Origin: Scleromatobacter humisilvae | GTDB lineage: Bacteria; Pseudomonadota; Gammaproteobacteria; Burkholderiales; Burkholderiaceae_C | Reading direction: 5' to 3' | Length of the DNA: 64,000 nucleotides | Assembly (NCBI RefSeq): GCF_023231945.1 | Contig: NZ_JAJLJH010000002.1 | Location: forward strand, 744,001-808,000 | Shown: one piece after another, positions 26,118 to 51,972 of the stretch | How the letters are laid out: the number at the start of each line of letters is the position of its first letter | Numbering within the stretch: the first letter of the stretch is position 1 | Notes under the pieces: generated by a model | The model's input: only the letters and a program-made list of their open reading frames with translations | What the model was told of the DNA's origin: nothing | The model's database searches: none | Position numbers and translations under genes: made by a program

Positions 26118-29100
26118 ATGTCCCTCATCACCTCGCTGTCGACCTCGCAGATCGCCGCCCTCACCACGACGACGATCTCCGCACTCGGAACGGCTGACTG
26201 GGCCGCGTTCAACACGGCCCAGATCCAGGCGCTGTCGACGGCGCAGGTCAACGTGATCTCGAGCACCGCGCTGTCGGCGATCGGCACCGCGCAGATCGCG
26301 GCGATGACGACGGCCGACGTGGCCGCGCTGACGACGACCGGCCTGCATGGCCTGACGACGTCGCAGATCGCGGCGCTGGGCACCGACCAGGTCGCGGGCC
26401 TGACGACCACGCAGCTCACCTCGCTCGCGACCTCGCAGGTCGCCGCGCTGACCACCGACCAGGTCGCCGGCCTGACGACCGCCGAGATCGGCGCGCTGAC
26501 GACGACGCAGACGGCCGCGCTGACCACGACGCAGCTGTCCGCGCTGACCACCGGCGAGATCGCCGCGATCTCGACCACCGACCTGCGCGCGATCGGCACC
26601 TCGGCGTTCACGTCGCTGGGCTCCGACCAGCTCAACGCGCTGACCAGCAACCAGATCGTCGCGCTGACCTCCAGCGAGATCACGGCGCTGACGACGACGC
26701 AGGTCAGCAACCTCGGCACCACCGCGCTCGACTCGTTCGCGACCTCGCAGATCGCCGCGCTGACGACCAGCCAGATCGGCGCGCTGACCACGACGCAGAT
26801 CAGCAACCTCGGCACGCTGCAGCTCGCCGCGATGACCAGCTCGCAGATCGGCGTGCTGTCGACGACCCAGGTGTCGTCGCTGACCACCAACGAGATCCTC
26901 GCGCTGACGACGGCGCAGACGGTCGCGCTCAAGACCTCGCAGATCGGCGCGCTGACGACCGACCAGGTCGCCGCGCTGTCGACCAGCGACCTGCGCGCCT
27001 TCAACACCGTCGCGATCAACGCGTTCACAACCGACCAGCTCAACGCGCTGACGACCACGCAGGTCGGCGCGCTGACGACCGCGCAGGTCGCCGCGCTGAC
27101 GACCAGCCAGCTGTCCAGCCTCGCCACCGACAGCCTCAACGCGCTCGTGACCTCGCAGTTCGCGGCGCTGTCGACGACGCAGATCAACGCGCTGACGACC
27201 GCGCAGGTCGCGGCGCTAGAGTCGGCCGACCTGGCCTCGCTGAGCTCCAACCAGATCCGCGCGTTCAACACCGCCGACATCGTCGCGATGAGCACCGGCG
27301 AGATCGTCGCGCTGACCACGGCCCAGGCCGCCGCGCTGACCACCACGCAGGCCGCCGCGCTGACCACCGACCAGATCGCGATGCTGACGACCGCCGACGT
27401 GGCCGTCCTGAGCAGCGCGGTCGTCCACGCGCTGGGCACCGACCAGCTGAACGCGCTGGGCACGAGCCAGATCGCCGCGTTCACGACGGCCCAGGTCGTC
27501 GCGATGTCGACCACGCAGATCGCCAGCCTGTCGACCGCCAGCCTCGACGCCTTCGCCACCTCGCGCCTCGCCGCCCTGAGCACGGCGCAGGTCGCCGCGC
27601 TGACCACCGACCAGGTCGCCAACCTGACGACGTCCGACCTCGCCGCGCTGAGCACCACGCAGATCCGCGCGCTGGCCACCGCCGACATCGCCGCGCTGAC
27701 CACCGATGAAGTCGCCGCGCTGAGCACCTCGCAGCTCAACGCGCTGTCGACCACCCAGATCGCCGCGCTGACGACCGACCAGGTCGCCGCGCTGACCACC
27801 GCCGACCTGCACGCGCTGGCGACCGCCTCGCTCGACGCGTTCTCGTCGAACCAGCTGAACGCGCTGACGACCTCGCAGGTCGCCGCGCTGAGCACGGCGC
27901 AGGTCGCCTCGCTGACCACGGCGCAGGTCGCCAACCTCGCCACCGCGACGCTGGACGCGCTGAGCACACAGCAGTTCGCCGCGCTGACCACCGCGCAGAT
28001 CGGCTCGCTCACCACCGACCAGGTCGTCGCGCTGACGACCGACGAGATCCACGCGCTGACGACGGCGCAGGCCGCCGCGCTCAAGACGAGCGAGATCGCC
28101 GCCCTCACCACCGACCAGCTCGCCGCGCTGAGCACCAGCGACCTGCGGGCGCTCGGCACCGGCGCGATCGACGCGCTGACCACCGACCAGCTCAACGCGC
28201 TGTCGACGACCCAGATGGCCGCGCTGACCACGGCGCAGGTCGCGGGCATCACCACCACGCAGCTGTCGGCCCTGTCGACGACCAACCTCGACGCGCTGAG
28301 CACCTCGCAGCTCGCCGCGCTGACCACCACCCAGGTCGCCAACCTGACGACCGACCAGGTCGCCGCGCTGACGACGGCCGACCTGGCCGCGCTGAGCACC
28401 AATCAGATCCGCTCGCTGAACACGACCGAGATCCAGGCGCTGACGACCAGCGAGGTCGCGGGCCTGACGACCGCCGCGATCAACGCGCTGTCGACCACGC
28501 AGATCGCCGCGCTGACCACCGACCAGGTCGCCGCGCTGTCCACCAGCGACCTGCGCGCCCTCGGCACCACCGCCCTCGATTCGTTCTCGACCGCGCAGCT
28601 CGACGCGCTGTCGACCTCGCAGGTCGCCGCCCTCACCACCGCGCAGATCGCGGCGATGACGACGACGCAGGTCGCGTCCCTCAACACGACCAACCTCGAC
28701 GCGCTGACCTCGGCGCAGATCGCCGCGCTGACGACCGCGCAGGTCGCCAACCTGACGACCGACCAGGTCGCCGCGCTGACCACGGCCGATCTGGCCGCGA
28801 TGACGACGACGCAGATCCGCTCGCTCAACACGACCGAGATCCAGGCGATCACGACGTCCGACATCGCCGCGCTGACCACCACCGCCGCCAACGCGCTGAC
28901 GACGACGCAGATCGCCGCGCTGACCACCGACCAGGTGTCCTCGCTGTCGACCGCCGACCTGCGCGCGCTGGGCACGGCCGCCGTCGACGCGTTCACCTCG
29001 AACCAGTTGAATTCGCTGACGACCACGCAGGTCGCCGCGTTCTCCACCGCGCAGATCGCGTCGCTGACGACCAGCCAGGTCGCCAACCTCGCGACCGCCA

Positions 29101-32100
29101 CCCTCGACGCGCTGACCACGCAGCAGTTCGCCGCGCTGACCACGGCGCAGATCGGCGCGCTGACGACCGACCAGGTCGCCGCGCTGACCACCGACGAGAT
29201 CCACGCGCTGACCACGGCGCAGGCCGCCGCGCTCAAGACCGCCGAGGTCGCCGCCCTGACCACCGACGAGCTCGCGGCGCTCACCACCGCCGACCTGCGC
29301 GCCTTCGGCACCGCCGCCGTCCAGGCGCTGACGTCCGACCAGCTCAACGCGCTGTCGACCACGCAGATGGCTGCGCTGAGCACCACGCAGGTCGCCGCCC
29401 TCACGACCGCCGATCTCTCGGCGCTGTCGACGACCAACCTCGACGCGCTGTCGACCACGCAGTTCGCCGCCCTGACCACCACGCAGATCGCCTCGCTGAC
29501 GACCGACCAGGTGGCCAACCTGACGACGTCGGACCTGGCCGCGATGAGCTCCAACCAGGTGCACGCATTGAACACCTCCGATATCCAGGCCCTGACGACC
29601 ACGCAGGTCGCCGCGCTGACGACCGCGACGATGAATGCGCTGACGACCACGCAGATCGCCGCGTTCACGACCGACCAGATCGCCGCCATCACGACGGCCG
29701 ACCTGCGCGCGCTGAACACGACGGCGCTCGACGCGCTGTCGTCCGACCAGCTCAACGCGCTGACGACGACGCAGCTCGACTCGCTGTCGACGACCGAGAT
29801 CGCCGCGCTGACGACCAGCCAGGTCGCCAACCTGTCGACGACGCAGCTCGACGCGCTGACGACCGCGCAGGTCGCCGCGCTGACCAGCAACCAGCTGGCG
29901 CACCTGACGACCGACCAGGTCGCCGCGCTGACCACGACCGAAGTGGCCGCGCTGTCGACCGCGCAGATCCGCTCGTTCACGACCACCAACCTCGCGGCGC
30001 TGACGACCGACGAGGTCGCGGCGCTGACGACGGCGCAGGCCAACGCGCTGTCGACGACGCAGGTCGCCGCGCTGACGACCGACCAGGTCGCCGCGCTGAC
30101 CACGAACGACCTGCGTGCACTCGGCACCGCGGCGGTCGATGCGCTGACGTCCAACCAGCTCAACGCGCTGACCACGACGCAGATCGCCGCGATGAGCACG
30201 CAGCAGATCGCCGCGCTGACGACGGCGCAGCTGTCGCACATCGGCACGACCAACGTCGACGCGCTGACGACGGCGCAGTTCGCCGCGCTGTCGACGACGC
30301 AGATCGCCTCGCTGACCTCGACGCAGATCACCGCGCCGCTGACCACCGCCCAGATCGCCGCGATGACGACGACCCAGGCGGCCGCGCTGACGACCACGCA
30401 GATCAGCAACCTGACCACCGACCTGGTGCAGGCGCTGACGACCACCGACCTGCGCGCGATCGGCACGACCGCGCTGCAGTCGCTGGGCTCCGACCAGCTC
30501 AACGCGCTGACCACCTCGCAGATGGCCGCGTTGACGACGACGCAGGTCGCCAACCTGTCGACCGGCCAGATCGCCGTGCTGTCGACGACCAACCTCGACG
30601 CGCTGACGACGGCGCAGATCGCGGCGCTGACGACGAAGGAAATCGCGACGCTGACGACCGACCAGGTCGCCAACCTGACGACGGCCGACGTCGTCGCGCT
30701 GACGACCACGCAGATCCGCGCGATCACCACCGGCGACCTGCAGGCGCTGACGACGGCCGAGGTGGCCGCGCTGACGACCACGCAGGCCAACGCGCTGTCG
30801 ACCACGCAGATCGCCGCGCTGACGACCGACCAGGTCGTGGCCCTGACGACCGCCGACCTGCGCGCGCTGGGCACGGCGTCCGTCGATGCCCTGACCTCCA
30901 GCCAGCTCAACGCGTTCACCACCGACCAGGTCGCCGCCTTCACGACGGCCCAGATCGCCGCGCTGACCACGTCGCAGATCGCCAGCCTCGCCACCGCGAC
31001 GCTGGATGCCCTGACGACCGCGCAGTTCGCCGCGCTGACGACGGCGCAGATCGGCGCGTTCACGACCGACCAGGTGGTCGCGCTGACCACCGCCGAGATC
31101 GGCGCGCTGTCGACCACGCAGGCCGCCTCGCTCAAGACGACCGAGATCGCCGCGCTGACGACCGACCAGCTCGCCGCGCTGACGACGAGCGACCTGCGCG
31201 CGCTCGGCACGACGCAGGTCGGCGCGCTGACGTCCGACCAGCTCAACGCGCTGTCGACGACGCAGATGGCCGCGCTGACGACGACGCAGGTCGCCAACCT
31301 GACGACCTCGCAGGTCGCCGCGTTGACGACGACCAACCTCGACGCGCTGACGACCAGCCAGTTCGCCGCGCTGACGACCCGGGAGATCGCCGCGCTGACG
31401 ACCGACCAGGTCGCCGCGCTGACCACGGCCGACCTCGGCGCGATGAGCTCCAACCAGCTGCGCGCGCTGTCGACCGCCGACATCCAGGCGCTCACCACCA
31501 GCGAGATCGCGGGCCTGACGACGGCCGCGGTCAACGCGCTGTCGACGACGCAGATCGCCGCGATCACGACCGACCAGATCACGTCGCTGTCGACGGCCGA
31601 CCTGCGTGCGCTGAGCACCGTGTCGGTCGACGCGCTGACCTCGACCCAGCTGAACGCGCTGACGACGACGCAGGTCGCCGCCTTCTCGACCGCGCAGATC
31701 GCCGCGCTGACGACCTCGCAGATCGCCAACCTCGCGACCGCCACGCTCGATGCGCTGACGACCTCGCAGTTCGCCGCGCTGACGACGACGCAGATCGGCG
31801 CGCTGACGACCGACCAGGTTGCCGCGCTGACGACCTCGGAAGTCGCCGCGCTGACGACGGCCCAGGCCGCGTCGCTGAAGACCGCCGAGATCGCCGCGCT
31901 GACCACCGATGAACTGGCCGCCCTGACGACCGCCGACCTGCGCGCCCTCGGCACCACGCAGATCGATGCGCTGACGACCGACCAGCTCAACGCGCTGTCG
32001 ACCACGCAGATGGCCGCGCTGTCCACGACGCAGCTGTCCAACCTGACGACCTCGCAGGTCGCCGCGCTGTCGACCACCAACCTCGACGCGCTGAGCACCG

Positions 32101-35100
32101 CCCAGATCGCCTCGCTGAAGACGGGCGAGATCGCGGCGCTGACGACCGACCAGGTCGCCGCGCTGACGACGGCCGACCTCAACGCGCTGAGCTCGAGCCA
32201 GCTGCGCGCGCTGTCGACCGCCGACATCCAGGCCCTGACGACGACCGAGCTCGCCGCGCTGTCGACCGCCGCGGCCAACGCGCTGTCGACGGCCCAGATC
32301 GCCGCCATCACCACCGACCAGATCACGTCGCTGTCGACGGCCGACCTGCGCGCGCTGGGCACGGCCTCGATCGACGCCTTCGGCACCGACCAGCTCAACG
32401 CGCTGACGACCACGCAGATCGCGGCGCTGTCGACCGCCCAGGTCGCCTCGATGACGACCACGCAGATCGCCAACCTGAGCACGTCCAACCTCGACGCGCT
32501 GGGCACCGCCCAGATCGCCGCGCTGACGACGGCGCAGCTCAACGCGCTGACGACCGACCAGATCGCCAACCTGACGACGACGGACCTCGCCGCGCTGACC
32601 ACCAGCCAGATCCGCTCGCTCAATACCACCGACCTGCAGGCGCTGACGACGACCGAAGTCGCCGCGCTGACCACGGCCCAGGCCAACGCGCTGTCGACGA
32701 CGCAGATCGCCGCGCTCACCACCGACCAGGTGGCCGCGCTGTCGACGGCCGACCTCCGCGCCCTCGGCACGGTCTCGGTCGACGCCTTCACGTCCAACCA
32801 GCTGAACGCGCTGACCACGACGCAGGTCGCCGCCTTCTCGACCGCCCAGGTCGCGTCGCTGACGACCTCGCAGATCGCCAGCCTGGCGACCGCCACGCTC
32901 GACGCGCTGACGACCACGCAGTTCGCCGCCCTGACGACGACGCAGATCGGCGCGCTGACGACCGACCAGGTCGCCAACCTGGCGACCACCGAGATCGCGG
33001 CGCTGACGACGGCCCAGGCCGCCGCGCTGAAGACCACGGAGATCGCCGCGCTGACCACCGACGAACTGGCAGCGCTGACGACCGCCGACCTGCGCGCGCT
33101 CGGCACGACGCAGGTCGATGCGCTGACGTCCGACCAGCTCAACGCGCTGTCGACCACGCAGATGGCCGCGCTGACGACCACCCAGGTCGCCAACCTGACC
33201 ACCACGCAGCTGGCCGCGCTGTCGACGACCAACCTCGACGCGCTGACGACGCAGCAGGTCGCCGCGCTGACGACCACGCAGGTCGCCAACCTGACGACCG
33301 ACCAGGTCGCCAGCCTGACCACGTCCGACGTGGCCGCGCTGACGACCACGCAGATCCGCGCGCTCAACACGACGGAGCTGCAGGCACTGACGACCACCGA
33401 GATCGCCGCGCTGACGACGGCCCAGGCCAACGCGCTGTCGACGACCCAGGTGCATGCGCTGACGACCGACCAGGTCGCCGCGCTGACCACCACCGACCTG
33501 CACGCGCTGGGCACCGCCGCCATCAACGCGTTCTCGACGGCCCAGCTCGACGCCTTCACGACGACCGAGATCGCCGCGCTGTCGACGGCCCAGCTGGCCT
33601 CGATGTCGACGACGCAGATCGCCAGCCTGAGCAGTGCCAGCCTCGACGCGCTGACGACCCAGCAGATGGCCGCGCTGACGACCACGCAGGTCGCCTCGCT
33701 GACCACGGCGCAGGTGTCGACCCTGACGACGACGGATGTCGCCGCCATGACGACCAGCCAGATCCGCGCGATCAACACCACCGACCTGCAGGCGCTGACC
33801 ACGAGTGAAGTCGCCGCGCTGACCACGGCGCAGGCCAACGCGCTGACGACGACCCAGGTGCATTCGCTGACGACCGACCAGGTCGCCGCGCTGACCACCT
33901 CCGACCTGCACGCCCTGGGCACGGCCGCCATCGATGCGCTGACGTCCAACCAGCTCAACGCGCTGACCACGACCCAGGTCGCCGCGCTGACGACGGCGCA
34001 GCTCGCCTCGATGACGACGGCGCAGATCGCCGCGCTGGCCACGGCCTCGCCGCTGGACGCGCTGTCGACGGCCCAGTTCGTCGCGTTGACGACCTCGCAG
34101 ATCGGTGCGCTGACGACCGACCAGGTCGCCTCGCTGACGACGTCGGAGATCGCGGCGATGACGACGGCCCAGGCCGCCGCGCTGAAGACCGCCGAGATCG
34201 CCGCACTGACGACCGACCAGCTGGCCGCGCTGACGACGAACGACCTGCGTGCCCTCGGCACGGCGGCCGTCGACGCGTTCACGTCCGACCAGCTCAACGC
34301 GCTGTCGACCACGCAGATGGCCGCGCTGACGACGACGCAGGTCTCGAGCCTGACGACGTCGCAAGTGGCCGCGCTGTCGACGACCAACCTCGACGCGCTG
34401 ACCACGGCACAGATCGCCTCGCTGAAGACGACCGAGATCGCCGCGCTGACGACCGACCAGGTCGCCAGCCTGACGACGGCCGACGTCGCCGCGCTGACGA
34501 CCGCGCAGATCCGCGCGATCACGACGACGGACCTGCAGGCGCTGACGACGACGGAAGTCGCCGCGCTGACGACCGCCCAGGCCAACGCGCTGACGACCAG
34601 CCAGGTGTCCTCGCTGACGACCGACCAGGTCGCCGCGATGACCACGGCCGACCTGCGCGCGCTCGGCACGGTCGCGATCGACGCGTTCACCACGACGCAG
34701 CTGAACGCGCTGACGACCACGCAGATGGCCGCCCTCTCGACCACGCAGGTGGCCGCGATGACGACCTCGCAGGTCGCCAACCTGTCGACGACCAACCTCG
34801 ACGCGCTGACGACCGCCCAGGTCGCCGCGCTGACGACGGCGCAGGTCTCGAACCTGACGACCGACCAGGTCGCCAACCTGACCACCGCCGACGTCGCCGC
34901 GCTGACGACGACGCAGATCCGCTCGCTCAACACGACGGAGCTGCAGGCCCTGACGACGACGGAAGTCGCCGCGCTGACGACGGCCCAGGCCAACGCGCTG
35001 AGCACCGCCCAGCTGTCCTCGCTGACGACCGACCAGGTCGCCGCGATGACGACGAGCGACCTGCGCGCGCTGAGCACCGTCTCGATCGATGCGCTGACGT

Positions 35101-38100
35101 CCAACCAGCTCAACGCGCTGACGACCACGCAGGTGGCCGCGCTGTCGACCACGCAGGTGGCCGCCATGACGACGGCGCAGGTGTCCAACCTGTCGACGGC
35201 CAACCTCGACGCCCTGACGACGACGCAGTTCGCCGCCATGACGACGACGCAGATCGGTGCGCTGTCGACCACGCAGGTCGCCAACCTGACCACCGACGAG
35301 ATCCACGCGCTGACCACGGCCCAGGCCGCGGCGCTGAAGACCGCCGAGGTGGCTGCGCTGACGACCGACCAGCTCGCCGCGCTGACGACGAGCGACCTGC
35401 GCGCCTTCGGCTCCGCCGCCGTCGACGCGCTGACCTCGACGCAGCTGAACGCCCTGTCGACGACCCAGATGGCCGCCCTCACGACCACGCAAGTGGCCGC
35501 GATGACGACCTCGCAAGTCGCCAACCTCTCCACGACCAACCTTGACGCGCTGACCACGCAACAGATCGCCGCGCTGACGACGGCGCAGGTCGCCAACCTG
35601 ACGACAGATCAGGTCGCCAACCTGACGACGGCCGACCTGGCCGCGATGACGACGACGCAGATCCGCGCGCTCAACACGACCGAGATCCAGGCGCTGACGA
35701 CGACGGAAGTCGCCGCCCTGACCACGGCCGCCGCGAACGCGCTGACGACCACGCAGATCGCCGCGCTGACCACCGACCAGGTGTCGTCGCTGTCGACGAG
35801 CGACCTGCGCGCGCTCGGCACCGTGGCGGTCGACGCCTTCACGTCGACGCAGCTCAACGCGCTGACGACCACGCAGGTGGCCGCGCTGTCGACCTCGCAG
35901 GTCGCCGCGCTGACCACGAGCCAGGTCTCCAACCTGAGCACGGCCAACCTCGACGCGCTGACCACCAGCCAGTTCGTCGCGCTGACCACCGCCCAGGTGC
36001 ACGCGCTGACGACCGACCAGGTCGCCGCCCTGACGACGACGGAAGTCGCCGCCCTGACGACGGCCCAGGCCTTCGCGCTGTCGACCACGCAGATCGCGGC
36101 GCTGACGACCGACCAGGCCCACGCGCTGAGCACGGCCGACCTGCGTGCCCTGGGCACGGCGGCGGTCGATGCGCTGACGACGGCGCAGCTCAACGCGCTG
36201 GCGACGGATCACATCGCCGCCTTCTCGACCACGCAGGTGGCCGCGCTGACGACGACGCAGCTGTCGAACCTCGGCACGACCAGTCTCGACGCGCTGACGA
36301 CCAGCCAGTTCGCCGCCCTGACGACCACGCAGGTGGCCGCCCTGACGACGGATCAGGTCGCCAACCTGACGACGGCCGACGTCGCCGCCTTCACGACGAA
36401 CCAGATCCGCGCGCTGAGCACGGCCGAGATCGTCGCGCTGACGACGACCGACGTCGCCGCGCTGTCGACGACGCAGGTCAACGCGCTGTCGACGACGCAG
36501 ATCGCCGCGCTGACCACCGACCAGGTGGCCGCGCTGTCGACGAGCGACGTGCACGCGCTGAGCACCGCCTCGATCGAGGCGTTCACGACGAACCAGCTCA
36601 ACGCGCTGGCGACGGATCACATCGCCGCGTTCACGACCGCGCAGGTGGCGGCCCTGAGCACGGAGCAGATCTCCAGCCTGACGACGGCCAACCTCGACGC
36701 CTTCGGCACCGCGCAGTTCGCCGCGCTGACGACGGCCGAAGTGGCGGCGATGACGACCGACCAGGTCGCCGCGCTGCAGACCGCCGACCTGGCCGCGCTG
36801 TCGACGACGCAGTTCCATGCGTTCACGACCGACCAGATCGCCGCGCTGACGACGACGGAGGTCGCCTCTCTGACGACGGCCGACATCGCCAGCATGTCGA
36901 CGAGCCAGTTCCACGCGTTCACGACCGACCAGATCGCGGCGCTGACGACGGCGGAAGTCCATGCGATGTCGACGACGGCACTGCATGCGATGACCACCGA
37001 CCAGGTCGCGGCCTTCACCACGAGCGACATCCAGGCGCTGACGACCGCGCACGTCGCGGCCTTCACGACGGATCACATCGCCGCGCTGACGACCGCGGAG
37101 GCCGCGGCCTTCACGAGCGCCGAGTTCGCCGCCCTGAGCACGGCCCACATCGCCGCGTTCACGACCGACCAGCTCGCGCACCTGACGACGACGGAAATCG
37201 TGGCGTTCACGACCGCGCAGATGCACGCGCTGTCGACCGACCAGATCGCCGCCTTCGTGACGGACACGATCCAGTCGTTCACCACGACCGACCTGCACTC
37301 GCTGACCTCGACCCAGGCCAACGCGTTCAGCAGCGACATCCCGTCGATGACGGATGCGCAGGTGAACGCGCTGATCACGGCCGACCCGATCGTGCTCGAC
37401 CTGACCGGCGCCGGCATCCACACGACGACGGCGGCCGCGGGCGTCAACTTCGACGTCGCCAACACGGGCACCGCGCAGCAGACGGCGTGGACGACGGGTT
37501 CGACCGAGGGCTTCCTCGTCCTCGACAAGAACCACAACGGCCAGATCACCGGCAACGAGATGTTCGGCACCGGCATGCTGATGCCGGACGGCACCCGCGC
37601 GGCCAACGGCTACGCCGCCCTGTCGCAGTACGACACCAACCACGACGGCAGGATCGATTCGCACGACGCGATCTTCAAGCAGCTGCAGGTGTGGGTCGAC
37701 GCGAACGGCGACGGCAAGGTCGAGGCCGGCGAGATGAAGTCGCTGACGCAGCTGGGCATCACGTCGCTCGACCTGCACGCGACGGCGAGCCACGCGACCG
37801 AGAACGGCAACTCGATCGGCCTGACGTCCAGCTACACGACGGCTTCCGGCGCGACCCACGAGATGGCGGACGTCAACCTCACCAAGAGCGACACGTCCAC
37901 CACCTCGACGACCGCGACCACGGCCATCCCGCACCTGAGCGACCTGCTCGCCGCGCCCGCCACCGACCTGTTGCCGGGTCACGTGGAGAACGCAGCGGTC
38001 TCGACGACGCACGCGAGCACGAGCCACGCGGCCGGCCTGGTCGACCAGCGCCTGCTGGAAGAAGAGGAACGCCATCGCAACCACAACAGCAACCCGCTGA

Positions 38101-38105
38101 TCTGA
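26118..38105 (+). CDS. Giant octapeptide-repeat exoprotein with C-terminal EF-hand module (3,995 aa)
   Basis: The family is not one I can name. No Sec signal is present; octad repeats start at residue 6 and run to about residue 3,755 with consensus A-L-T/S-T-x-Q/D/E-V/I/L-x. The C-terminal 240 residues hold VLDLTGAGIHTT and three Dx[DN]xDG-type calcium loops (DKNHNGQITGNE at 3803, DTNHDGRIDSHD at 3839, DANGDGKVEAGE at 3861), a module common at the end of type I-secreted exoproteins. The chain ends in an acidic run (LLEEEERHRN) and a hydrophobic NPLI. I see no cysteine; aromatic residues are almost absent from the array except near its ends. Type I export is inferred from the absent signal peptide, C-terminal architecture and nearby transporter genes. 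Confidence 0.9.
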   Translation: MSLITSLSTSQIAALTTTTISALGTADWAAFNTAQIQALSTAQVNVISSTALSAIGTAQIAAMTTADVAALTTTGLHGLTTSQIAALGTDQVAGLTTTQLTSLATSQVAALTTDQVAGLTTAEIGALTTTQTAALTTTQLSALTTGEIAAISTTDLRAIGTSAFTSLGSDQLNALTSNQIVALTSSEITALTTTQVSNLGTTALDSFATSQIAALTTSQIGALTTTQISNLGTLQLAAMTSSQIGVLSTTQVSSLTTNEILALTTAQTVALKTSQIGALTTDQVAALSTSDLRAFNTVAINAFTTDQLNALTTTQVGALTTAQVAALTTSQLSSLATDSLNALVTSQFAALSTTQINALTTAQVAALESADLASLSSNQIRAFNTADIVAMSTGEIVALTTAQAAALTTTQAAALTTDQIAMLTTADVAVLSSAVVHALGTDQLNALGTSQIAAFTTAQVVAMSTTQIASLSTASLDAFATSRLAALSTAQVAALTTDQVANLTTSDLAALSTTQIRALATADIAALTTDEVAALSTSQLNALSTTQIAALTTDQVAALTTADLHALATASLDAFSSNQLNALTTSQVAALSTAQVASLTTAQVANLATATLDALSTQQFAALTTAQIGSLTTDQVVALTTDEIHALTTAQAAALKTSEIAALTTDQLAALSTSDLRALGTGAIDALTTDQLNALSTTQMAALTTAQVAGITTTQLSALSTTNLDALSTSQLAALTTTQVANLTTDQVAALTTADLAALSTNQIRSLNTTEIQALTTSEVAGLTTAAINALSTTQIAALTTDQVAALSTSDLRALGTTALDSFSTAQLDALSTSQVAALTTAQIAAMTTTQVASLNTTNLDALTSAQIAALTTAQVANLTTDQVAALTTADLAAMTTTQIRSLNTTEIQAITTSDIAALTTTAANALTTTQIAALTTDQVSSLSTADLRALGTAAVDAFTSNQLNSLTTTQVAAFSTAQIASLTTSQVANLATATLDALTTQQFAALTTAQIGALTTDQVAALTTDEIHALTTAQAAALKTAEVAALTTDELAALTTADLRAFGTAAVQALTSDQLNALSTTQMAALSTTQVAALTTADLSALSTTNLDALSTTQFAALTTTQIASLTTDQVANLTTSDLAAMSSNQVHALNTSDIQALTTTQVAALTTATMNALTTTQIAAFTTDQIAAITTADLRALNTTALDALSSDQLNALTTTQLDSLSTTEIAALTTSQVANLSTTQLDALTTAQVAALTSNQLAHLTTDQVAALTTTEVAALSTAQIRSFTTTNLAALTTDEVAALTTAQANALSTTQVAALTTDQVAALTTNDLRALGTAAVDALTSNQLNALTTTQIAAMSTQQIAALTTAQLSHIGTTNVDALTTAQFAALSTTQIASLTSTQITAPLTTAQIAAMTTTQAAALTTTQISNLTTDLVQALTTTDLRAIGTTALQSLGSDQLNALTTSQMAALTTTQVANLSTGQIAVLSTTNLDALTTAQIAALTTKEIATLTTDQVANLTTADVVALTTTQIRAITTGDLQALTTAEVAALTTTQANALSTTQIAALTTDQVVALTTADLRALGTASVDALTSSQLNAFTTDQVAAFTTAQIAALTTSQIASLATATLDALTTAQFAALTTAQIGAFTTDQVVALTTAEIGALSTTQAASLKTTEIAALTTDQLAALTTSDLRALGTTQVGALTSDQLNALSTTQMAALTTTQVANLTTSQVAALTTTNLDALTTSQFAALTTREIAALTTDQVAALTTADLGAMSSNQLRALSTADIQALTTSEIAGLTTAAVNALSTTQIAAITTDQITSLSTADLRALSTVSVDALTSTQLNALTTTQVAAFSTAQIAALTTSQIANLATATLDALTTSQFAALTTTQIGALTTDQVAALTTSEVAALTTAQAASLKTAEIAALTTDELAALTTADLRALGTTQIDALTTDQLNALSTTQMAALSTTQLSNLTTSQVAALSTTNLDALSTAQIASLKTGEIAALTTDQVAALTTADLNALSSSQLRALSTADIQALTTTELAALSTAAANALSTAQIAAITTDQITSLSTADLRALGTASIDAFGTDQLNALTTTQIAALSTAQVASMTTTQIANLSTSNLDALGTAQIAALTTAQLNALTTDQIANLTTTDLAALTTSQIRSLNTTDLQALTTTEVAALTTAQANALSTTQIAALTTDQVAALSTADLRALGTVSVDAFTSNQLNALTTTQVAAFSTAQVASLTTSQIASLATATLDALTTTQFAALTTTQIGALTTDQVANLATTEIAALTTAQAAALKTTEIAALTTDELAALTTADLRALGTTQVDALTSDQLNALSTTQMAALTTTQVANLTTTQLAALSTTNLDALTTQQVAALTTTQVANLTTDQVASLTTSDVAALTTTQIRALNTTELQALTTTEIAALTTAQANALSTTQVHALTTDQVAALTTTDLHALGTAAINAFSTAQLDAFTTTEIAALSTAQLASMSTTQIASLSSASLDALTTQQMAALTTTQVASLTTAQVSTLTTTDVAAMTTSQIRAINTTDLQALTTSEVAALTTAQANALTTTQVHSLTTDQVAALTTSDLHALGTAAIDALTSNQLNALTTTQVAALTTAQLASMTTAQIAALATASPLDALSTAQFVALTTSQIGALTTDQVASLTTSEIAAMTTAQAAALKTAEIAALTTDQLAALTTNDLRALGTAAVDAFTSDQLNALSTTQMAALTTTQVSSLTTSQVAALSTTNLDALTTAQIASLKTTEIAALTTDQVASLTTADVAALTTAQIRAITTTDLQALTTTEVAALTTAQANALTTSQVSSLTTDQVAAMTTADLRALGTVAIDAFTTTQLNALTTTQMAALSTTQVAAMTTSQVANLSTTNLDALTTAQVAALTTAQVSNLTTDQVANLTTADVAALTTTQIRSLNTTELQALTTTEVAALTTAQANALSTAQLSSLTTDQVAAMTTSDLRALSTVSIDALTSNQLNALTTTQVAALSTTQVAAMTTAQVSNLSTANLDALTTTQFAAMTTTQIGALSTTQVANLTTDEIHALTTAQAAALKTAEVAALTTDQLAALTTSDLRAFGSAAVDALTSTQLNALSTTQMAALTTTQVAAMTTSQVANLSTTNLDALTTQQIAALTTAQVANLTTDQVANLTTADLAAMTTTQIRALNTTEIQALTTTEVAALTTAAANALTTTQIAALTTDQVSSLSTSDLRALGTVAVDAFTSTQLNALTTTQVAALSTSQVAALTTSQVSNLSTANLDALTTSQFVALTTAQVHALTTDQVAALTTTEVAALTTAQAFALSTTQIAALTTDQAHALSTADLRALGTAAVDALTTAQLNALATDHIAAFSTTQVAALTTTQLSNLGTTSLDALTTSQFAALTTTQVAALTTDQVANLTTADVAAFTTNQIRALSTAEIVALTTTDVAALSTTQVNALSTTQIAALTTDQVAALSTSDVHALSTASIEAFTTNQLNALATDHIAAFTTAQVAALSTEQISSLTTANLDAFGTAQFAALTTAEVAAMTTDQVAALQTADLAALSTTQFHAFTTDQIAALTTTEVASLTTADIASMSTSQFHAFTTDQIAALTTAEVHAMSTTALHAMTTDQVAAFTTSDIQALTTAHVAAFTTDHIAALTTAEAAAFTSAEFAALSTAHIAAFTTDQLAHLTTTEIVAFTTAQMHALSTDQIAAFVTDTIQSFTTTDLHSLTSTQANAFSSDIPSMTDAQVNALITADPIVLDLTGAGIHTTTAAAGVNFDVANTGTAQQTAWTTGSTEGFLVLDKNHNGQITGNEMFGTGMLMPDGTRAANGYAALSQYDTNHDGRIDSHDAIFKQLQVWVDANGDGKVEAGEMKSLTQLGITSLDLHATASHATENGNSIGLTSSYTTASGATHEMADVNLTKSDTSTTSTTATTAIPHLSDLLAAPATDLLPGHVENAAVSTTHASTSHAAGLVDQRLLEEEERHRNHNSNPLI
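26133..37380 (+). repeat. 24-nt coding repeat array (about 468 octads) grouped in 408/336-nt modules
   Basis: In-frame 24-nt units run without spacers through the first giant gene. A marker octad pair coding D-L-R-A-L-G-T recurs at 26580, 26988, 27396 (diverged), 27804, 28140, 28548, 28956, 29292, 29700, 30108, 30447, 30855, 31191, 31599, 31935, 32343, 32751, 33087, 33495, 33903, 34242, 34650, 35058, 35394, 35802, 36138 and 36546. Intervals are 408 nt (17 times), 336 nt (7 times) or 339 nt (twice), so modules are 17 or 14 octads. The 339-nt cases carry a single extra CCG codon. Confidence 0.95.
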
Positions 38106-38160
38106 TCGACGGCGAGGCCGGCCCGAAGCAAGCGCGAGGGCCGGCCCAGCCGCCACCGAC

Positions 38161-41100
38161 ATGAGCTTCTTCTCGCGGCTGTTGCTGGGTCCCGTCATCG
38201 GTCGCGCGTTCGACCGCTGGACCCATCACGCCCATGCATCGACCGACACGACGGCCACCACCGTCACCGGCGCGCTGCATTCAATGGAGATCGCCGCGCT
38301 GACGTCGGCGGACGTGGCCGCGCTCACCGATGCGCAGCTGCGTTCGATCGCGGCGGCGGACATGGTGTTCTTCGACACGGCGGCGCTGATCGGGTTCTCC
38401 AGCGAGCAGCTGAACGTGCTCTCGACGAGCCAGTTCGTCCAGCTGCTGCCGGCCGAGATCGCGGCGCTGACGCCGCAGCAGATCGCCAGCGTGCGCACTG
38501 CGGACATCCACGCGATGCACACGGACCAGGCCGCCGCGCTGAGCAGCGACCAGGTGGCCGCGCTGACGACGGCGCAGGTCGTGGCGTTGACGACGGCCGA
38601 CGTCGTCGCGCTCACGACGACCGGCCTGCAGGGCCTGATGACGGCGCAGGTGCACGCGCTTTCCAGCAGCCAGCTCGCGGCGCTGACGACCGACCAGGTC
38701 GCCGCGCTGACCACCGACGACGTGGCGGCGCTCACCAGCGCGCAGGTCCAGCTGCTGTCGACGGCCGACCTGGCCGCGCTCACCAGCGACCAGTGGCAGG
38801 CGCTGGTGAGTGCCGAAATCGCCGCGCTGACGACGGCGCAGGTCGCGTCGCTCGCCACCGCGCAGATCGCGATCCTGACCACCGATGAGATCGCCGCGCT
38901 GACGACGACGCAGGTGCATGCGTTGAGCACCGTGCAGGTCGCGGCGCTGTCGGCCGACGACGTGATGGCGCTGACGACAGCGCAGGTCGGCGCGCTGACC
39001 ACGCGCCAGATCGCCTCGCTCACCACCGACCAGGTCGGCGCGCTGAGCACCACTGACTTCCACGCATTGAGCTCGCAGCAGGTGGCCGCGTTGACGACGA
39101 CGCAGGTCGCCGCGTTGAGCACCGAGCTGATCTCCAGCCTGGGCAGCAGCGGCGTCGCGGGGCTGTCGACGACCGACATCCACGCGCTGAGCACGCTGCA
39201 GGTTGCGTCCCTGACGACCGCCGAGCTGCAGGGCCTGCGCACCGCCCAGGTCGCGGCGCTGACCTCGACGCAGGCGCTGGCGCTGAGCGCCGACCAGCTG
39301 GACAGCCTCACGACCACGGACCTGCGCGCGCTGACCACCAGCGTGATCGCGGCGCTGCCGTCGCAGGAGCTGGACGGGCTGTCGGCAGTGTCGTTGGCGG
39401 CGTTGACGACGGCGCAGGTCGCGGCGCTGACGACCGCGCAGGTCGCCGCGCTGGCCGTGAACACGCTCGACGCGCTGTCGTCCTCGCAGATCCTGGCGCT
39501 GACCACGCGCCAGATCGGCGCGCTGACGACGGACCAGATCGGCGCGCTCGAGACCGACGTCGTGGGCGCGCTCTCCAGCACGCAGCTGCGCGCGCTGTCG
39601 ACGGCGCAGTTCGCGGCGCTGACCACCGACGAGCTCGCCGCGATCTCGACGGCCAGCATCCCGGCGCTGACCACGACGCAGGTGGCCGGGCTGTCGGTCG
39701 ACACGCTGGCCGCGTTGTCGACCAGCCAGTTCGCGGCGCTGACCTCGACGCAGGTCGCGGCGCTGACGACGACGCAGGCGATGAGCCTGTCCACGGACGA
39801 CATCGCCGCGCTGACCACCGCGCAGGCCGCGGCGCTGACGACGGCCGACGCCGGCGTGCTGAGCGCCGACCAGCTGGCCGCGCTGTCGACCGCCGATCTC
39901 GCCGCGCTGCGCACCGCCACGCTCGATGCGCTGGCGACCGACCAGTTCGCGGGACTGTCGACGACGCAGCTCGCCGCGTTGACGACGACGCAGGTCGCCG
40001 GGCTCGGCAGCGCGCAGGTCACGGTCCTGGGCAGCGACCAGATCGCGGCGCTGACGACCAGCCAGTTCGCGGCGCTGTCGACGACGGCGATCGCGTCGCT
40101 GAGCGCCGACCAGGTCGCCGCGCTGTCGACCGCCGACGTCGGCTCGATGACGACGGCGCAGCTGCGCGGCCTGACGACGACGCAGTTCGACGCGCTGACG
40201 ACCGACGCGCTGGCGGTGCTGTCGACCGCCGCCATCGCGTCGCTGTCGACGCTGCAGCTGTCCAACCTGCTGCCCGCGCAGCTCGACGCGCTGACGCCGA
40301 CGCAGTTCTCGGCGCTCACCACCACGCAGATCGGCGCGCTGACCTCGGCGCAGATCGCGAGCTTCTCGCTGGCGCAGATCGCGGCGCTGCCGCCCGCCGA
40401 CATCGCGGCGCTGTCGACCAGCGCGATCCTGGGTTTCGGCTCGGCGGGCATCCAGGTGTTGAGCACCGCCGACATCGCGGCCATGCGCTCGGTGCAGGTC
40501 GCGGCGCTGTCGACGGACGAGGTGGCCGCGCTGTCGAACGCGCAGCTCGCGGCGCTGAACACCAGCAGCGTGCGCGCGCTGGGCGTGGCCGCGCTCGACG
40601 CGCTGAGCGCCGGCCAGTTCATCGCGTTGTCGACGAGGCAGCTCGCCGCGATGACCACCGCGCAGGTGGCCGGCCTGACGACGGGCGAGCTTGCGGCGCT
40701 GTCGTCGACGCAGCTGAACGCGTTCACGACCGCGCAGATCGCGGCGCTGACGACGACCGAGGCCGTCGCGCTGACGCCCGCCCAGCTCGCCGGCCTGAGT
40801 TCGCTCGACCTGCGCGCGTTGAGCACCGCGGCGTTGCGCGCGCTGGACGTCGCCGGCGTCGAGGCGCTGACGTCGACCGAGATCGGCCAACTGACGACGA
40901 CGCAGTTCGCGGCGCTGACGGCCAGCCAGCTCGGGGCGTTGTCGACCGACCAGATCGCGATGCTGACGACCAGCGAGGTCGTCGCGCTGGGCACCGCGGG
41001 CGTGCAGGCGCTGGTCGCGGCGCAGCTCGACGCGCTGTCGATGGCACAGGTCGCGGCGCTGACGACCACCGAGATCCACGCGCTGACGTCGACGCAGGTG

Positions 41101-42537
41101 ACCGGCCTGGACGACGTGCACCTGGCCGCGTTCACCACGCGCCAGTTCGGCTCGCTCACCACCGACGTCATCGCCGCGCTGAGCACCGACCAGATCGTGG
41201 CGCTGTCGTCCGCGGACTTCGGCGTGCTGACCACCGCGCAGGTGGCCGCGCTGAGCCCCGACGCGATCGCGGCACTCACGGTCAACGAGGTCGCGGCGAT
41301 GACGACGACGCAGGTGTCGGCAATCAGCAGCAGCCAGGTCACGTCGCTGTCGGCCGACGACCTGATGGCGTTGAGCACCGCCGACCTGCACGCCTTCAAC
41401 ACGTCCGCGATTTCGGCGCTGAGCACCGACCAGGTGACCTGGTTGACGAGCTCGGAGTTCAGCGCGTTCGGCACGGCGCAGATCGCCGCCTTCACGACGA
41501 CGCAGATCGAGGCGTTCAGCAGCGACGTCCTCAACGGCCTGAACTCGGCCCAGTTCGCGGCGCTGACCTCGACCCAGTTCTCCGCGCTCACCGTCGACCA
41601 GTTCAGCCATCTCGGCACGGTCGACATCGCGGCGCTGACGACCGCGCAGGCGCACGCGCTGAGCACCGACAACATCGTGGCGATGTCGACCGAACAGGTG
41701 CAAGTGCTGACGACCACCGACATCAGCGCGATGAGCGCAGACCAGGCCGCCGCGTTCACGGGCGACCAGCTGGGCGCGATGTCGACCTCGCAGATCAACG
41801 CCCTGTTCGCCGCGACGCCGGTGGTGCTGGACCTCAACGGCGACGGCATCAGCACGACCTCGGCCGCGCACGGCACGGCGTTCGACATCGCGGCGACCGG
41901 CAGCAACGCGCAACATGGCTGGACGTCGACCACCGACGGCCTGCTCGCGATCGACCTCAACCACAACGGCAGGATCGATAACGGCAGCGAGCTGTTCGGC
42001 ATCGGCATGACCCTGCCGAACGGGCAGCGCGCGGCCAACGGCTATGCGGCGATGGCGGCCTACGACAGCAACGGCGACGGCGTGCTGGACGCCAAGGACG
42101 CGCACTTCAAGGATCTCGTCGTGTGGGTCGACGCGAACCACAATGGGGTGAGCGATCCGGGCGAGCTGAAGTCGCTCGCGCAACTGGGCATCGTATCGCT
42201 GGACCTGCACGGGCTGGCGGGCACGGCCACCAACAACGGCAACCTGCTGGGGCTGACGTCGTCGTACACGACGGCCGATGGCACGACGCATGCGATGGCG
42301 GACGTCTGGTTCGCCAAGGACACGTCGGCCGCGGCCACGGCCGCAAGCGCACCGCCGGCCTTGCACGACCTGCTGGCGGCGCCTGCGACCGAGCTGTTGC
42401 CTGGGAGCGAGACTGCGCACGTCTCGCCTGTGCACTCGACGGCTGACCATGCCTCGGTGGCGATGGCGCATCAAGCGTTGGCGCACGCTCGACTGCAGGA
42501 TGAGGACGAGGCTCGGCGGAACGCGCCGTTGCTCTGA
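38161..42537 (+). CDS. Second octapeptide-repeat exoprotein with C-terminal EF-hand module (1,458 aa)
   Basis: Paralogue of the preceding gene, 55 nt downstream and probably co-transcribed. A non-repeat N-terminus of about 45 residues (MSFFSRLLLGPVIGRAFDRW, then a Thr-rich linker) precedes about 146 octads of the same A-L-T-T-x-Q-V-A type, more diverged than in the first gene. The C-terminal module repeats VLDLNGDGISTTS with calcium loops DLNHNGRIDNGSE (residue 1265), DSNGDGVLDAKD (1302) and DANHNGVSDPGE (1324). It ends in DEDEARRNAPLL, matching the acidic-then-hydrophobic tail of its neighbour. No Sec signal peptide is evident and no strong ribosome site precedes the ATG. Surface or extracellular location is inferred. 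Confidence 0.9.
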   Translation: MSFFSRLLLGPVIGRAFDRWTHHAHASTDTTATTVTGALHSMEIAALTSADVAALTDAQLRSIAAADMVFFDTAALIGFSSEQLNVLSTSQFVQLLPAEIAALTPQQIASVRTADIHAMHTDQAAALSSDQVAALTTAQVVALTTADVVALTTTGLQGLMTAQVHALSSSQLAALTTDQVAALTTDDVAALTSAQVQLLSTADLAALTSDQWQALVSAEIAALTTAQVASLATAQIAILTTDEIAALTTTQVHALSTVQVAALSADDVMALTTAQVGALTTRQIASLTTDQVGALSTTDFHALSSQQVAALTTTQVAALSTELISSLGSSGVAGLSTTDIHALSTLQVASLTTAELQGLRTAQVAALTSTQALALSADQLDSLTTTDLRALTTSVIAALPSQELDGLSAVSLAALTTAQVAALTTAQVAALAVNTLDALSSSQILALTTRQIGALTTDQIGALETDVVGALSSTQLRALSTAQFAALTTDELAAISTASIPALTTTQVAGLSVDTLAALSTSQFAALTSTQVAALTTTQAMSLSTDDIAALTTAQAAALTTADAGVLSADQLAALSTADLAALRTATLDALATDQFAGLSTTQLAALTTTQVAGLGSAQVTVLGSDQIAALTTSQFAALSTTAIASLSADQVAALSTADVGSMTTAQLRGLTTTQFDALTTDALAVLSTAAIASLSTLQLSNLLPAQLDALTPTQFSALTTTQIGALTSAQIASFSLAQIAALPPADIAALSTSAILGFGSAGIQVLSTADIAAMRSVQVAALSTDEVAALSNAQLAALNTSSVRALGVAALDALSAGQFIALSTRQLAAMTTAQVAGLTTGELAALSSTQLNAFTTAQIAALTTTEAVALTPAQLAGLSSLDLRALSTAALRALDVAGVEALTSTEIGQLTTTQFAALTASQLGALSTDQIAMLTTSEVVALGTAGVQALVAAQLDALSMAQVAALTTTEIHALTSTQVTGLDDVHLAAFTTRQFGSLTTDVIAALSTDQIVALSSADFGVLTTAQVAALSPDAIAALTVNEVAAMTTTQVSAISSSQVTSLSADDLMALSTADLHAFNTSAISALSTDQVTWLTSSEFSAFGTAQIAAFTTTQIEAFSSDVLNGLNSAQFAALTSTQFSALTVDQFSHLGTVDIAALTTAQAHALSTDNIVAMSTEQVQVLTTTDISAMSADQAAAFTGDQLGAMSTSQINALFAATPVVLDLNGDGISTTSAAHGTAFDIAATGSNAQHGWTSTTDGLLAIDLNHNGRIDNGSELFGIGMTLPNGQRAANGYAAMAAYDSNGDGVLDAKDAHFKDLVVWVDANHNGVSDPGELKSLAQLGIVSLDLHGLAGTATNNGNLLGLTSSYTTADGTTHAMADVWFAKDTSAAATAASAPPALHDLLAAPATELLPGSETAHVSPVHSTADHASVAMAHQALAHARLQDEDEARRNAPLL
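38296..41810 (+). repeat. 24-nt coding repeat array (about 146 octads) of the second giant gene
   Basis: Contiguous octad-coding units in one frame. The copies differ more from each other than in the first gene (many replace T-T with S-S, S-A or L-P), and I did not find the strict 17/14-octad modules; an 11-octad spacing between two Leu-Arg-Ala octads near 39319 and 39583 still matches the internal spacing of the 17-octad module. The unit near residues 155-180 (TTTGLQGLMTAQ) mirrors TTTGLHGLTTSQ near the start of the first protein. Confidence 0.9.
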
Positions 42538-42629: not shown

Positions 42630-42683
42630 GGGGTCAGGTCTTGCCTTTTGCCCCCAGGCTGGGGTCAGGTCTTGCCTTTTGCC
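42630..42683 (-). repeat. REP-type element, two copies (left flank of RAYT)
   Basis: The 23-mer GGGGTCAGGTCTTGCCTTTT-GCC occurs at 42630-42652 and 42661-42683, and a partial copy (TTGGGGTCA) lies at 42611-42619. The copies are inverted relative to those on the right flank. The second copy overlaps the 3' end of the transposase gene and supplies its stop codon. Confidence 0.85.
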
Positions 42684-43603: not shown

Positions 43604-43672
43604 TGCACGAGCGTAGGGCCGCGCGTGCAGGCTCCTGGGAGCCAAATGGCGAGATATCCGCGCCAATCGTCA

Positions 43673-43871: not shown

Positions 43872-45740
43872 TCAGCGCGTATGCAGATCGACAGCCGACG
43901 CCGCCGGTGCGGCATCACGCTCGCCGAACGCCAGCACGTCGTAGTAATAGAGCGTGCGCGACGCCTTGCGCTGGTTCTGCCGCAGCAACGAGTCGAGCAG
44001 CTGATCGAGCACGCGCGGCTGGGAAACCTCGCAGATCGGGTTGCCGAAGTTGTCGAACACCCAGAAGCCCGCATACCCGCAGGCCCACAGCGCGCGCAGC
44101 CGCTGGCGCCAGGAATCGGCAGCCTGAGCATCGCCGCCGAGCTGGCAACTGAAGTACAGCATCGGACGCGCCGACGCGCACAGCCCCGCAGCTCCTTCGA
44201 GCAACGACGGGCCACCCGCCCCCGCCGTCGACACGACAAGCCGCACGCGATCCATGCCTGGCCGCGAGGCGATCTCGCGCAGTGCCACGTCGACCCCCGG
44301 CAATGCGGAAGAGCCGAGTTCGGCATGCAGCAACTGGACGCTGCCATCGCGCAAGACGGCTGCGTTCGTGCGCAGGTAGGCGAAGCGCTTCGCGTCGCGC
44401 TCGATGCCCAGCAGGTTCAGGGCAGGCCGGGCGTCGGCGAGTTGCGCCAGCGTCGATCCGAAGCCCGCACCGGCGATCACCACGCCGTCGCCGTCGTCCA
44501 GCACCGCACCGAGCGCGGAAGGCAGGCGGCCGAACAGCGGATGCTCGCGTTGCAGCCCCGGCAGCGGATGGGTGGCCGGCAGGCGGCAGCGCAGCTTGCC
44601 GAGCGTCAGCAGTTGATCGTCGGCAGCGACTGCCGCCGCCGTCACGCGCGGCGCGGGCGCGGGACGCGCGTCGGCCGCGGCCTGCAGCGCCGAGGCGACG
44701 CCGTCGGCCATCGTCTGCCAGCTGAACTTGCGCGCCTGCACGCGGCCGCGCTCGATCAGGCTCGCGCGGACCTCGGGGCGCTGCACCTGCTGCAGCAGCT
44801 CGAAGGTCTGCGCTTCCTCGTTCGCGCCGAGTTCGATGTAGAGCACCGCGTCGCCGCCGACTTCGGGCAGCGAGGACGCGTTGGAGGTGATGGCGGGGCA
44901 CTCGCACGCCATCGCCTCGAGCACGGGCAGGCCGAAGCCCTCATACCGGGACGGGTACACCAGCGCCAGCGCGCCGGCGTAGGCGCAGCGCAGGTCGTGG
45001 TCGTCGAAGATCGCGAGGTGCACGCTGGCCTCGCCCGCGGCCGCCTGGCTCGCAGGGTCGAGCTGGCCGCCGCCGGTGCAGACGATCGCATAGTCCTTGC
45101 GCGCGTCGCCGAAGCGGGCGAAGGCCGAGAAGAACAGCGCGGCGTTCTTGTAGTCGGCGCGGCTGCCCGAGGTCATGAAATACGGACGCACGATGCCGTG
45201 GCGCCTGCGGAAGTCGGCCACTTCCTCGGCACTGACGGGCGCGAAGTCGCTGCCGGTGTAGTCGACGCGCACGTCGACCGCCTTGCCCGCGAAGCGCGCC
45301 AGGTCGCGCGCGGTGCTGTGCGAGATTGCCGTGTAGCTGGACGCATAGGCCAGCGCCTCGCGCTTCTGGCGCCACATCGGCGTGCCGAGGTCGTAGCCCA
45401 TCACCTCGGGGATCATGTCGTAGACCATCGCCATCGACGGCGTGGACTTGGGGTAGCTGTAGTACGTCGACATGAACAGCGCCGCGCCGACCTCGTCGCA
45501 GACGTCCTGCACGACGCGGCGGTCGCCTTCGAGGTCGTTGTAGTTGAGGCCGGGCGCGTCGTGGAAGCGGATGCCCGCCACGCGCGGCGCGGTGCGCGCG
45601 CGATCCATCACGACGAGGCGATCGCCGAATGGCGTGCCGGCCCACAGCCCGAGCAGCGACTGCCACACGCGCGCGATGCCGGAGCGGCCGATCTGGAAGA
45701 AGACGCCGTCGATGACGATGGGAGAAGCGTTCGGGGTCAT
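43872..45740 (-). CDS. GT4-family glycosyltransferase fused to an FkbM-like C-terminal domain
   Basis: Residues 1-345 form a GT-B retaining glycosyltransferase of the GT4 type: the donor-site motif YPSRYEGFGLPVLEAMACEC with the E-x7-E pattern, preceded by YFMTSGSRADYKNAALFF, is clear. Residues from about 400 look like an FkbM-type methyltransferase fold (VVIAGAGFGSTLAQLADARP, LLGIERDAKRFAYLRTNAAV, and GFWVFDNFGNPICEV near the end), although the SAM loop GAGFG is only an approximate match. It is the last gene of a three-gene glycosyltransferase operon, 10 nt after the fucosyltransferase-like gene. The probable role is sugar addition on a glycan or glycoprotein in the cytoplasm. Confidence 0.8.
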   Translation of the reverse strand: MTPNASPIVIDGVFFQIGRSGIARVWQSLLGLWAGTPFGDRLVVMDRARTAPRVAGIRFHDAPGLNYNDLEGDRRVVQDVCDEVGAALFMSTYYSYPKSTPSMAMVYDMIPEVMGYDLGTPMWRQKREALAYASSYTAISHSTARDLARFAGKAVDVRVDYTGSDFAPVSAEEVADFRRRHGIVRPYFMTSGSRADYKNAALFFSAFARFGDARKDYAIVCTGGGQLDPASQAAAGEASVHLAIFDDHDLRCAYAGALALVYPSRYEGFGLPVLEAMACECPAITSNASSLPEVGGDAVLYIELGANEEAQTFELLQQVQRPEVRASLIERGRVQARKFSWQTMADGVASALQAAADARPAPAPRVTAAAVAADDQLLTLGKLRCRLPATHPLPGLQREHPLFGRLPSALGAVLDDGDGVVIAGAGFGSTLAQLADARPALNLLGIERDAKRFAYLRTNAAVLRDGSVQLLHAELGSSALPGVDVALREIASRPGMDRVRLVVSTAGAGGPSLLEGAAGLCASARPMLYFSCQLGGDAQAADSWRQRLRALWACGYAGFWVFDNFGNPICEVSQPRVLDQLLDSLLRQNQRKASRTLYYYDVLAFGERDAAPAASAVDLHTR

Positions 45741-50711: not shown

Positions 50712-51725
<1,014 letters not shown>

Positions 51726-51972
51726 TCGAGGTGCTCCAACATGGATCGATGGAACGGATGATGGGCGTTCTGAAGGGCTGCTGTTCAGCCGAAAAGCGGG
51801 ACGAAACCGCGGCAATCCCGACCCGGCGGCCGAGGTGTCGACCGCGTGCGGCCCCTGCCGGAAATGGCGGGCGAACGCGGCGCAGTTCCGCTCGTGGGCG
51901 CGACGTCGCGCTGGCAACATCGGCGGCAACACGTCGAAGGTCCGCGCGCGACCGCATCGAAAGGCACGCCCC

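Follow-up and report, generated by a model that had tools for sequence, protein, structure and literature searches.

Giant octapeptide-repeat proteins of Scleromatobacter humisilvae as the probable cargo of a glycosylation-and-secretion locus

HMW1C, from one of the described systems closest to the locus analysed here, is a glycosyltransferase of the GT41 family that acts in the cytoplasm. In FrpC, which carries a self-processing module (SPM), calcium binding is followed by cleavage at Asp414-Pro415, according to PMC7078468, which is also our source for the roles of individual FrpC residues. An eight-residue repeat, or octad, is listed in Pfam as PF20080 (ALTTAQ_rpt), and an octad protein of 120 residues, HeliScrew4, has been solved (PDB 9zem) and is considered here by name and sequence, its structure unseen. 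We analysed a 64,000-nucleotide stretch of the S. humisilvae genome (contig NZ_JAJLJH010000002.1, positions 744,001 to 808,000; the window), in which two adjacent genes encode giant proteins, P0001 and P0002, made mostly of octads. Judging from the sequences, the giants are probably the cargo of a dedicated glycosylation-and-secretion locus, their octads being O-glycosylated in the cytoplasm before the chains leave by type I export.

Two giant proteins built of a listed octad

The first gene (26118..38105, forward strand) encodes P0001, 3,995 residues long, in which octads fill residues 6-3750 (26133..37367) and are followed by an SPM-like module and a tail. The second (38161..42537, forward strand) encodes P0002, with 1,458 residues and about 147 octads. 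An earlier note made from the letters of this DNA had described two giant octad proteins, and the ends of both open reading frames (ORFs), their lengths and the arrays bear it out. Chaining at a period of eight counts 468 octads in P0001, of which 467 lie in the array and one is spurious in the tail, the array being broken only by two slips of 1 residue and a single gap of 7 residues; in P0002 it counts 152, some of them spurious within the C-terminal module. Stricter chaining gives 462 and 147 octads, respectively. A core regular expression finds 366 matches in P0001 and 85 in P0002; when the letters of each repeat region were shuffled 200 times, the most found were 18 and 7, respectively. 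The array of octads is real and almost without breaks, and lies well outside what chance would produce.

The P0001 consensus is A-L-T-T-x-Q-V/L/I-A, with Leu, Phe, Met or Ile at position 2, mostly Gln, Asp or Glu at position 6, and Val, Leu or Ile at position 7. Position 3 is Ser or Thr in 84% of octads and position 4 in 100% (rounded) of the 462 strictly chained octads, which amounts to as many as about 460 candidate position-4 acceptors on one chain. Octad copies in P0001 are most alike at spacings of 48, 31 and 17 octads, a higher-order period of 48 (17+31). Several lysines of P0001 recur every 384 residues (48 octads), and the octads of P0002 are free of lysine. Neither protein contains cysteine, and neither begins with a long hydrophobic stretch (no signal-peptide predictor was applied).

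The earlier note had allowed that the reading frame might not be translated. GC content by codon position is 0.58/0.55/0.98, single-base codon differences between repeat copies lean synonymous (omega-like ratio 0.41-0.46, uncorrected for third-position GC bias), and octad frames in relatives are open for up to 6,123 codons; on these observations the frame appears to be translated, and a frame that is untranslated or coded in antisense was rejected. The longest octad frame, G011:C22:4384-20313 (part of it in L158), exceeds those of the window. An open frame of 3,660 codons also runs antisense to the P0001 gene (27216-38198, reverse strand) and is best explained by codon composition, and a tRNA-Ala that ARAGORN calls within the octad ORF but on the other strand (34832-34913, reverse) is probably a chance call in repeat DNA.

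The octad, which the earlier note did not recognise, matches PF20080 with 2745 bits in P0001 and 742.5 bits in P0002 (cut-off 26.4), over 138 and 44 stretches, respectively. An unnamed repeat is ruled out by this match, and a solved octad protein exists: the octads align with HeliScrew4 over 112 residues (E 4e-18). Its TPEQ pattern, viewed with general knowledge of helix capping, suggests that each octad opens a short helix for which position 3 would be the N-cap. No paper naming ALTTAQ or HeliScrew was found in the literature searched, a weak absence as most subscription journals and bioRxiv lay outside the search; the same literature yielded no paper on octapeptide-repeat adhesins and, by title, no helical-repeat design work about octads. 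Within it, the repeat family is established but uncharacterised. CAAP1, DUF4351, sigma-70 region 4 and LRR_EndoS, as well as SAM_3 in P0002 only, passed the whole-protein cut-off with no single passing stretch, and we read these, together with PDB matches of leucine-rich-repeat type, as chance matches of a Leu-periodic repeat. RTX nonapeptides are absent, as the earlier note had it: neither protein contains a GGxGxD motif and no haemolysin calcium-binding Pfam family is listed, which rules out an RTX protein.

Linkage of octads to a type I exporter and a GT41 enzyme

The reverse strand beyond P0002 encodes a type I secretion system. Its ATP-binding cassette (ABC) exporter is of the LssB type (56524..58893; TIGR03375, 752.1 bits, cut-off 693.1) and is accompanied by an HlyD-family adaptor (55219..56502; TIGR01843, 324.7 bits, cut-off 208.65) and a TolC-like outer membrane efflux protein (49215..50663), which passes PF02321 (75.4 against 22) yet stays below TIGR01844 (55.7 against 225.15). 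With this system adjoining the octad genes, secretion of the giants is well supported. Between it and the giants lies the gene of a TPR-containing GT41 enzyme resembling O-GlcNAc transferase, or OGT (47022..49037, reverse strand; PF13844, 289.9 bits against 25, plus TPR families). The enzyme aligns in an OGT-like manner over its TPRs and both transferase parts, including the HPxxH and FNxxYKI stretches, and its best solved matches are the OGT 110 kDa subunit (7yeh, E 5.7e-108) and XcOGT (1e-90). It scores only 24.3 with the N-glucosyltransferase (HMW1C) model NF049992, far below the cut-off of 1000, and NxS/T sequons number 35 in P0001 but 3 in P0002; N-glycosylation was rejected on these grounds. 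The earlier note was right to propose a dedicated system, and the giants may, once secreted, be surface proteins.

We propose that, while still in the cytoplasm, octad hydroxyls receive a sugar from the TPR-GT41 enzyme, most likely on the Ser or Thr at position 4, and that this sugar may be extended by further glycosyltransferases encoded in the locus. The chain, still unfolded, would then be directed by its C-terminal tail to the type I exporter made up of LssB, HlyD and TolC. In P0001 this tail (LSDLLAAPATDLLPG plus terminal NPLI; 37887..38105, forward strand) is the presumed type I secretion signal, and similar tails occur in most octad relatives. Outside the cell, calcium would fold the FrpC-like module, and folding of the octads would yield a rod, long, stiff and covered with sugars, which could serve as matrix, coat or adhesive.

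This proposal draws on a linkage that recurs across related genomes. At an E-value of 0.001, PF20080 is found in 39 of 150 genomes of the bacterial family, 36 of them over the cut-off of the Pfam family; in a sample of the class, octads occur in 4 of 273 other genomes. The comparison set comprised the 39 octad genomes, the window's own included, and 39 of the others, with an ABC orthologue defined by at least 55% identity (matches of 39-40% in G024 and G026 were excluded). Such an orthologue is present in 28 of the 39 octad genomes versus one of the 39 octad-free genomes (Fisher p 6e-11, uncorrected for kinship). In each of the 28, a GT41 match lies no more than 10 kb from the ABC gene, in one case (G101) as a fragment at a contig end, and in 23 the two are within 1 kb. 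With one octad locus taken per genome, octads share a contig with that GT41 gene at up to 35 kb in 19 of the 28, lie farther away on it in 2, and are on another contig in 7, among them G005, which gains a near octad gene if L031 is the same contig. The GT41 gene follows an octad gene on the same strand in L061, L067, L077, L046, L048 and G138. The sole octad-free genome with an ABC orthologue, G043, has HlyD adjoining this orthologue and, on another contig, a GT41 enzyme of clade A (see below); its assembly is 80% complete and in 700 contigs, so a repeat gene may be missing from it.

GT41 matches occur in 35 of the 39 octad genomes and in 19 of the 39 others, and because such genes are common in themselves, control loci matter. 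We picked 19 control GT41 loci among the matches listed and found no exporter beside any of them: 0/11 from nine octad-free genomes, 0/7 for other GT41 genes of octad genomes, and 0/1 in G058, with two of the 19 holding a weak partial ABC match (27-30%). Seven further GT41 loci of other clades, some on short contigs, likewise gave no exporter match. In a tree of 43 GT41 rows, which included 18 controls and from which L048 was left out as a near-copy of L046, linked enzymes form two exclusive clades, with 7 and 17 members (the window's enzyme belongs to the one called A, the other being B); these control-free clades take in 24 of the 25 rows linked to octads or exporter. The 25th, L102 of G005, falls among the controls, though in G005 the exporter has a clade B enzyme next to it as well.

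The octads themselves differ with the enzyme. With further GT41 enzymes assigned to clades by best match and octad positions compared per genome, the Ser/Thr fraction at position 4 has a median of 0.97 among 28 genomes that carry a clade A or B enzyme or the exporter-linked gene cassette (26 with the cassette, plus G012 and G138) versus 0.53 among six without (G024, G048, G051, G055, G058 and G084; p 0.008). Left out of this test were G060, G087 and G106, which have no octad chain, as well as the window (0.95) and G067 (1.00). There is no comparable rise at position 3 (p 0.08, in the opposite direction). In HeliScrew4, position 4 is Pro in 10 of 12 octads and never Ser or Thr, so an octad protein can be solved without Ser/Thr there; the sampled octads of G055 have Ser/Thr in 10% and Pro in 37% of cases at position 4 and Ser/Thr in 87% at position 3. 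These two cases imply that octads can do without Ser/Thr at position 4, which is nevertheless retained for the most part in the presence of a clade A or B enzyme. Rather more tentative than the assignment of the giants to the locus is the fuller proposal of a previously unreported pathway, in which an OGT-like enzyme would sugar the position-4 Ser/Thr before type I export, repeat and GT41 clade having co-evolved. OGT-type or GT41 glycosylation together with type I secretion was not found in the literature searched.

Several observations weigh against this interpretation. The ABC orthologue is absent from 11 of the 39 octad genomes, three of which have marginal octad matches without an octad chain, and position 4 is Ser/Thr in a fraction of only 0.80 in P0002 itself. 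G052 has both the cassette and a clade B enzyme, yet its position-4 fraction is only 0.58; in G084 it is 1.00, and the only GT41 seen there is of another kind. In G055 (L172), a GT41 enzyme of a third kind stands directly beside an octad gene, in a genome whose sampled octads favour Pro or Ala at position 4, and it may act on position 3 or not on octads. For several genomes few octads were sampled (n=8 to 100 in the low group, n=9 in G101). Both the linkage and the position-4 pattern could stem from shared descent, and position 4 Ser/Thr might be a packing residue in the natural fold.

The C-terminal module and the competing explanations

The earlier note had pointed to matching C-terminal modules with calcium-binding loops, and the two modules indeed match FrpC and each other. 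That of P0001 (residues 3757-3923, 37386..37886, forward strand) follows Asp3756 and that of P0002 (residues 1220-1388, 41818..42324, forward strand) follows Thr1219, which makes the preceding site Asp-Pro in the one and Thr-Pro in the other. Both align with FrpC (PDB 6sjw) over the whole module, with E 9.4e-27 for P0001 and 2.1e-36 for P0002. P0001 keeps the Asp-Pro (Asp3756-Pro3757) and three of the four calcium loops, with two residues of calcium site 1 lost; D579 is kept in both proteins and the equivalent of D478 is lost in both (Thr and Ile). We tallied the site before the module over 82 rows, less 6 duplicates and 2 without a readable site. Among 69 distinct octad-bearing sites the residue before Pro is Thr in 43, Ser in 25 and Asp in P0001 only, and both modules of G139, a genome of the same genus, have Ser-Pro; in modules from octad-free loci it is Asp in 3 of 5. 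Given Thr or Ser at 68 of the 69 octad sites and Ser in G139, we read the module as a calcium-folded C-terminal domain in which the Asp of P0001 is probably incidental, cleavage of P0001 being a lesser possibility.

These site counts bear most directly on an active clip-and-link mechanism, in which calcium would cut Asp3756-Pro3757 and the rod would be joined covalently to the lysines of neighbours as a cross-linked coat. The Asp-Pro, D579 and three calcium loops of P0001 (roles as given in PMC7078468) and the lysines at 384-residue spacing would suit it; the Thr/Ser sites and the Ser-Pro of G139 rule it out as a family trait, and with D478 lost in both proteins and two site 1 residues in P0001 it is very improbable for P0001 as well. 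Only slightly less improbable is that the position-4 Ser/Thr is kept for the fold alone and that its association with GT41 reflects shared ancestry of the whole locus in one family. The near confinement of octads to that family speaks for such an origin, whereas the Pro at position 4 of HeliScrew4, and the octads of G055, with Pro/Ala at position 4 and Ser/Thr at position 3, speak against it.

The giants might also be exported unglycosylated as an ordinary matrix protein or adhesin, with GT41 and the other glycosyltransferases acting elsewhere as neighbours in a surface-structure island. Sugar-nucleotide and GT47 genes in the locus fit this explanation, as do the four of the 39 octad genomes without a GT41 match (G024, G060, G087 and G106, three of them with marginal octad matches), from which it follows that octads can exist without GT41. 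We nevertheless consider it unlikely: GT41 lies within 1 kb of the exporter in most genomes that have the orthologue, forms private clades, is tracked, with exceptions, by Ser/Thr at position 4, and stands downstream of an octad gene on the same strand in six loci or genomes. Export of glycosylated giants from a dedicated locus is the explanation that we prefer.

Gene order and comparison with described systems

The host genome is GC-rich and 6.27 Mb in size. Judged by the C-terminal module of P0002, its nearest named relatives belong to the Burkholderiales, among them Rhizobacter, Ideonella, Roseateles, Aquabacterium and Sphaerotilus; for Sphaerotilus with type I secretion, nothing relevant by title was found in the literature searched. 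The 5' flank is housekeeping by its Pfam families (ribosomal protein S2, EF-Ts, a nucleotide-type kinase, ribosome recycling factor, a CTP transferase, Omp85 and LpxB), two enzyme genes also lie upstream of the tandem octad genes, and an RNase R-type gene lies downstream of the locus. Directly after the P0002 gene comes an IS200-like Y1 transposase (42665-43666, reverse strand) with weak helix-turn-helix matches. It is followed by a GT4-type glycosyltransferase (43872..45740, reverse; PF00534), a TPR protein with a weak NodZ-like match (45751..47021, reverse), the GT41 and TolC-like genes, a NAD-dependent sugar-nucleotide epimerase/dehydratase (50712..51986, reverse), an exostosin-type GT47 glycosyltransferase (51628..52956, forward), and the HlyD and ABC genes. 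The ORF of the TPR/NodZ-like protein is listed to 47649; its first part overlaps GT41 and its true start is probably near 47020. Where this query matched within GT41 genes, in G139 and G067, the matches reflect the out-of-frame ORF overlap and were left uncounted. The epimerase and GT47 genes probably start downstream of their listed starts, and their membership in the locus is uncertain. A 187-residue protein with weak PEP-CTERM matches is encoded just downstream of the adaptor gene (54404-54967, reverse).

Homologues of the GT4 gene adjoin octad genes in L037 and L121, and those of the TPR/NodZ-like gene adjoin GT41 and octads in L037, L103 and L121; no GT47 homologue was seen among the relatives fetched. 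G139 has a compact order of ABC, HlyD, outer membrane efflux protein and GT41, then two octad genes on the opposite strand, so the epimerase, GT47 and GT4 of the window need not be core members. In Sphaerotilus natans (L046), an environmental relative that can be cultivated, the octad, GT41, ABC, HlyD and TolC-like genes all share one strand.

If correct, the proposed pathway would join OGT-type protein glycosylation to type I secretion, point to a function for a Pfam repeat so far uncharacterised, and provide a natural bacterial OGT substrate in which hundreds of sites recur at regular spacing and for which the family-wide contrast at position 4 (Ser/Thr versus Pro/Ala) makes the acceptor site directly testable. 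The PF20080 listing describes the same octad and gives the repeat name only; no paper in the literature searched connects it with GT41 and type I export. LssB-type secretion of giants is similar in placing ABC, HlyD and TolC-like genes beside a giant repeat protein with no Sec-like start, whereas here the cargo consists of octads and a GT41 gene is part of the cassette. The self-processing module of FrpC (6sjw, 6sjx) aligns in whole, with calcium loops 2-4 kept; octad modules differ from it in the Thr or Ser that almost always replaces the cleavage Asp, and the window's modules also in their loss of D478 and lack of nonapeptides. HMW1/HMW1C, in which an adhesin is glycosylated (PMC3012730), resembles this locus in devoting a glycosyltransferase to a large exported protein; however, HMW1 is N-glycosylated and leaves by two-partner secretion, in contrast to the OGT-like enzyme and type I exporter found here. 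Each part of the locus belongs to a known family, and as far as the literature was searched, only the combination appears to be new.

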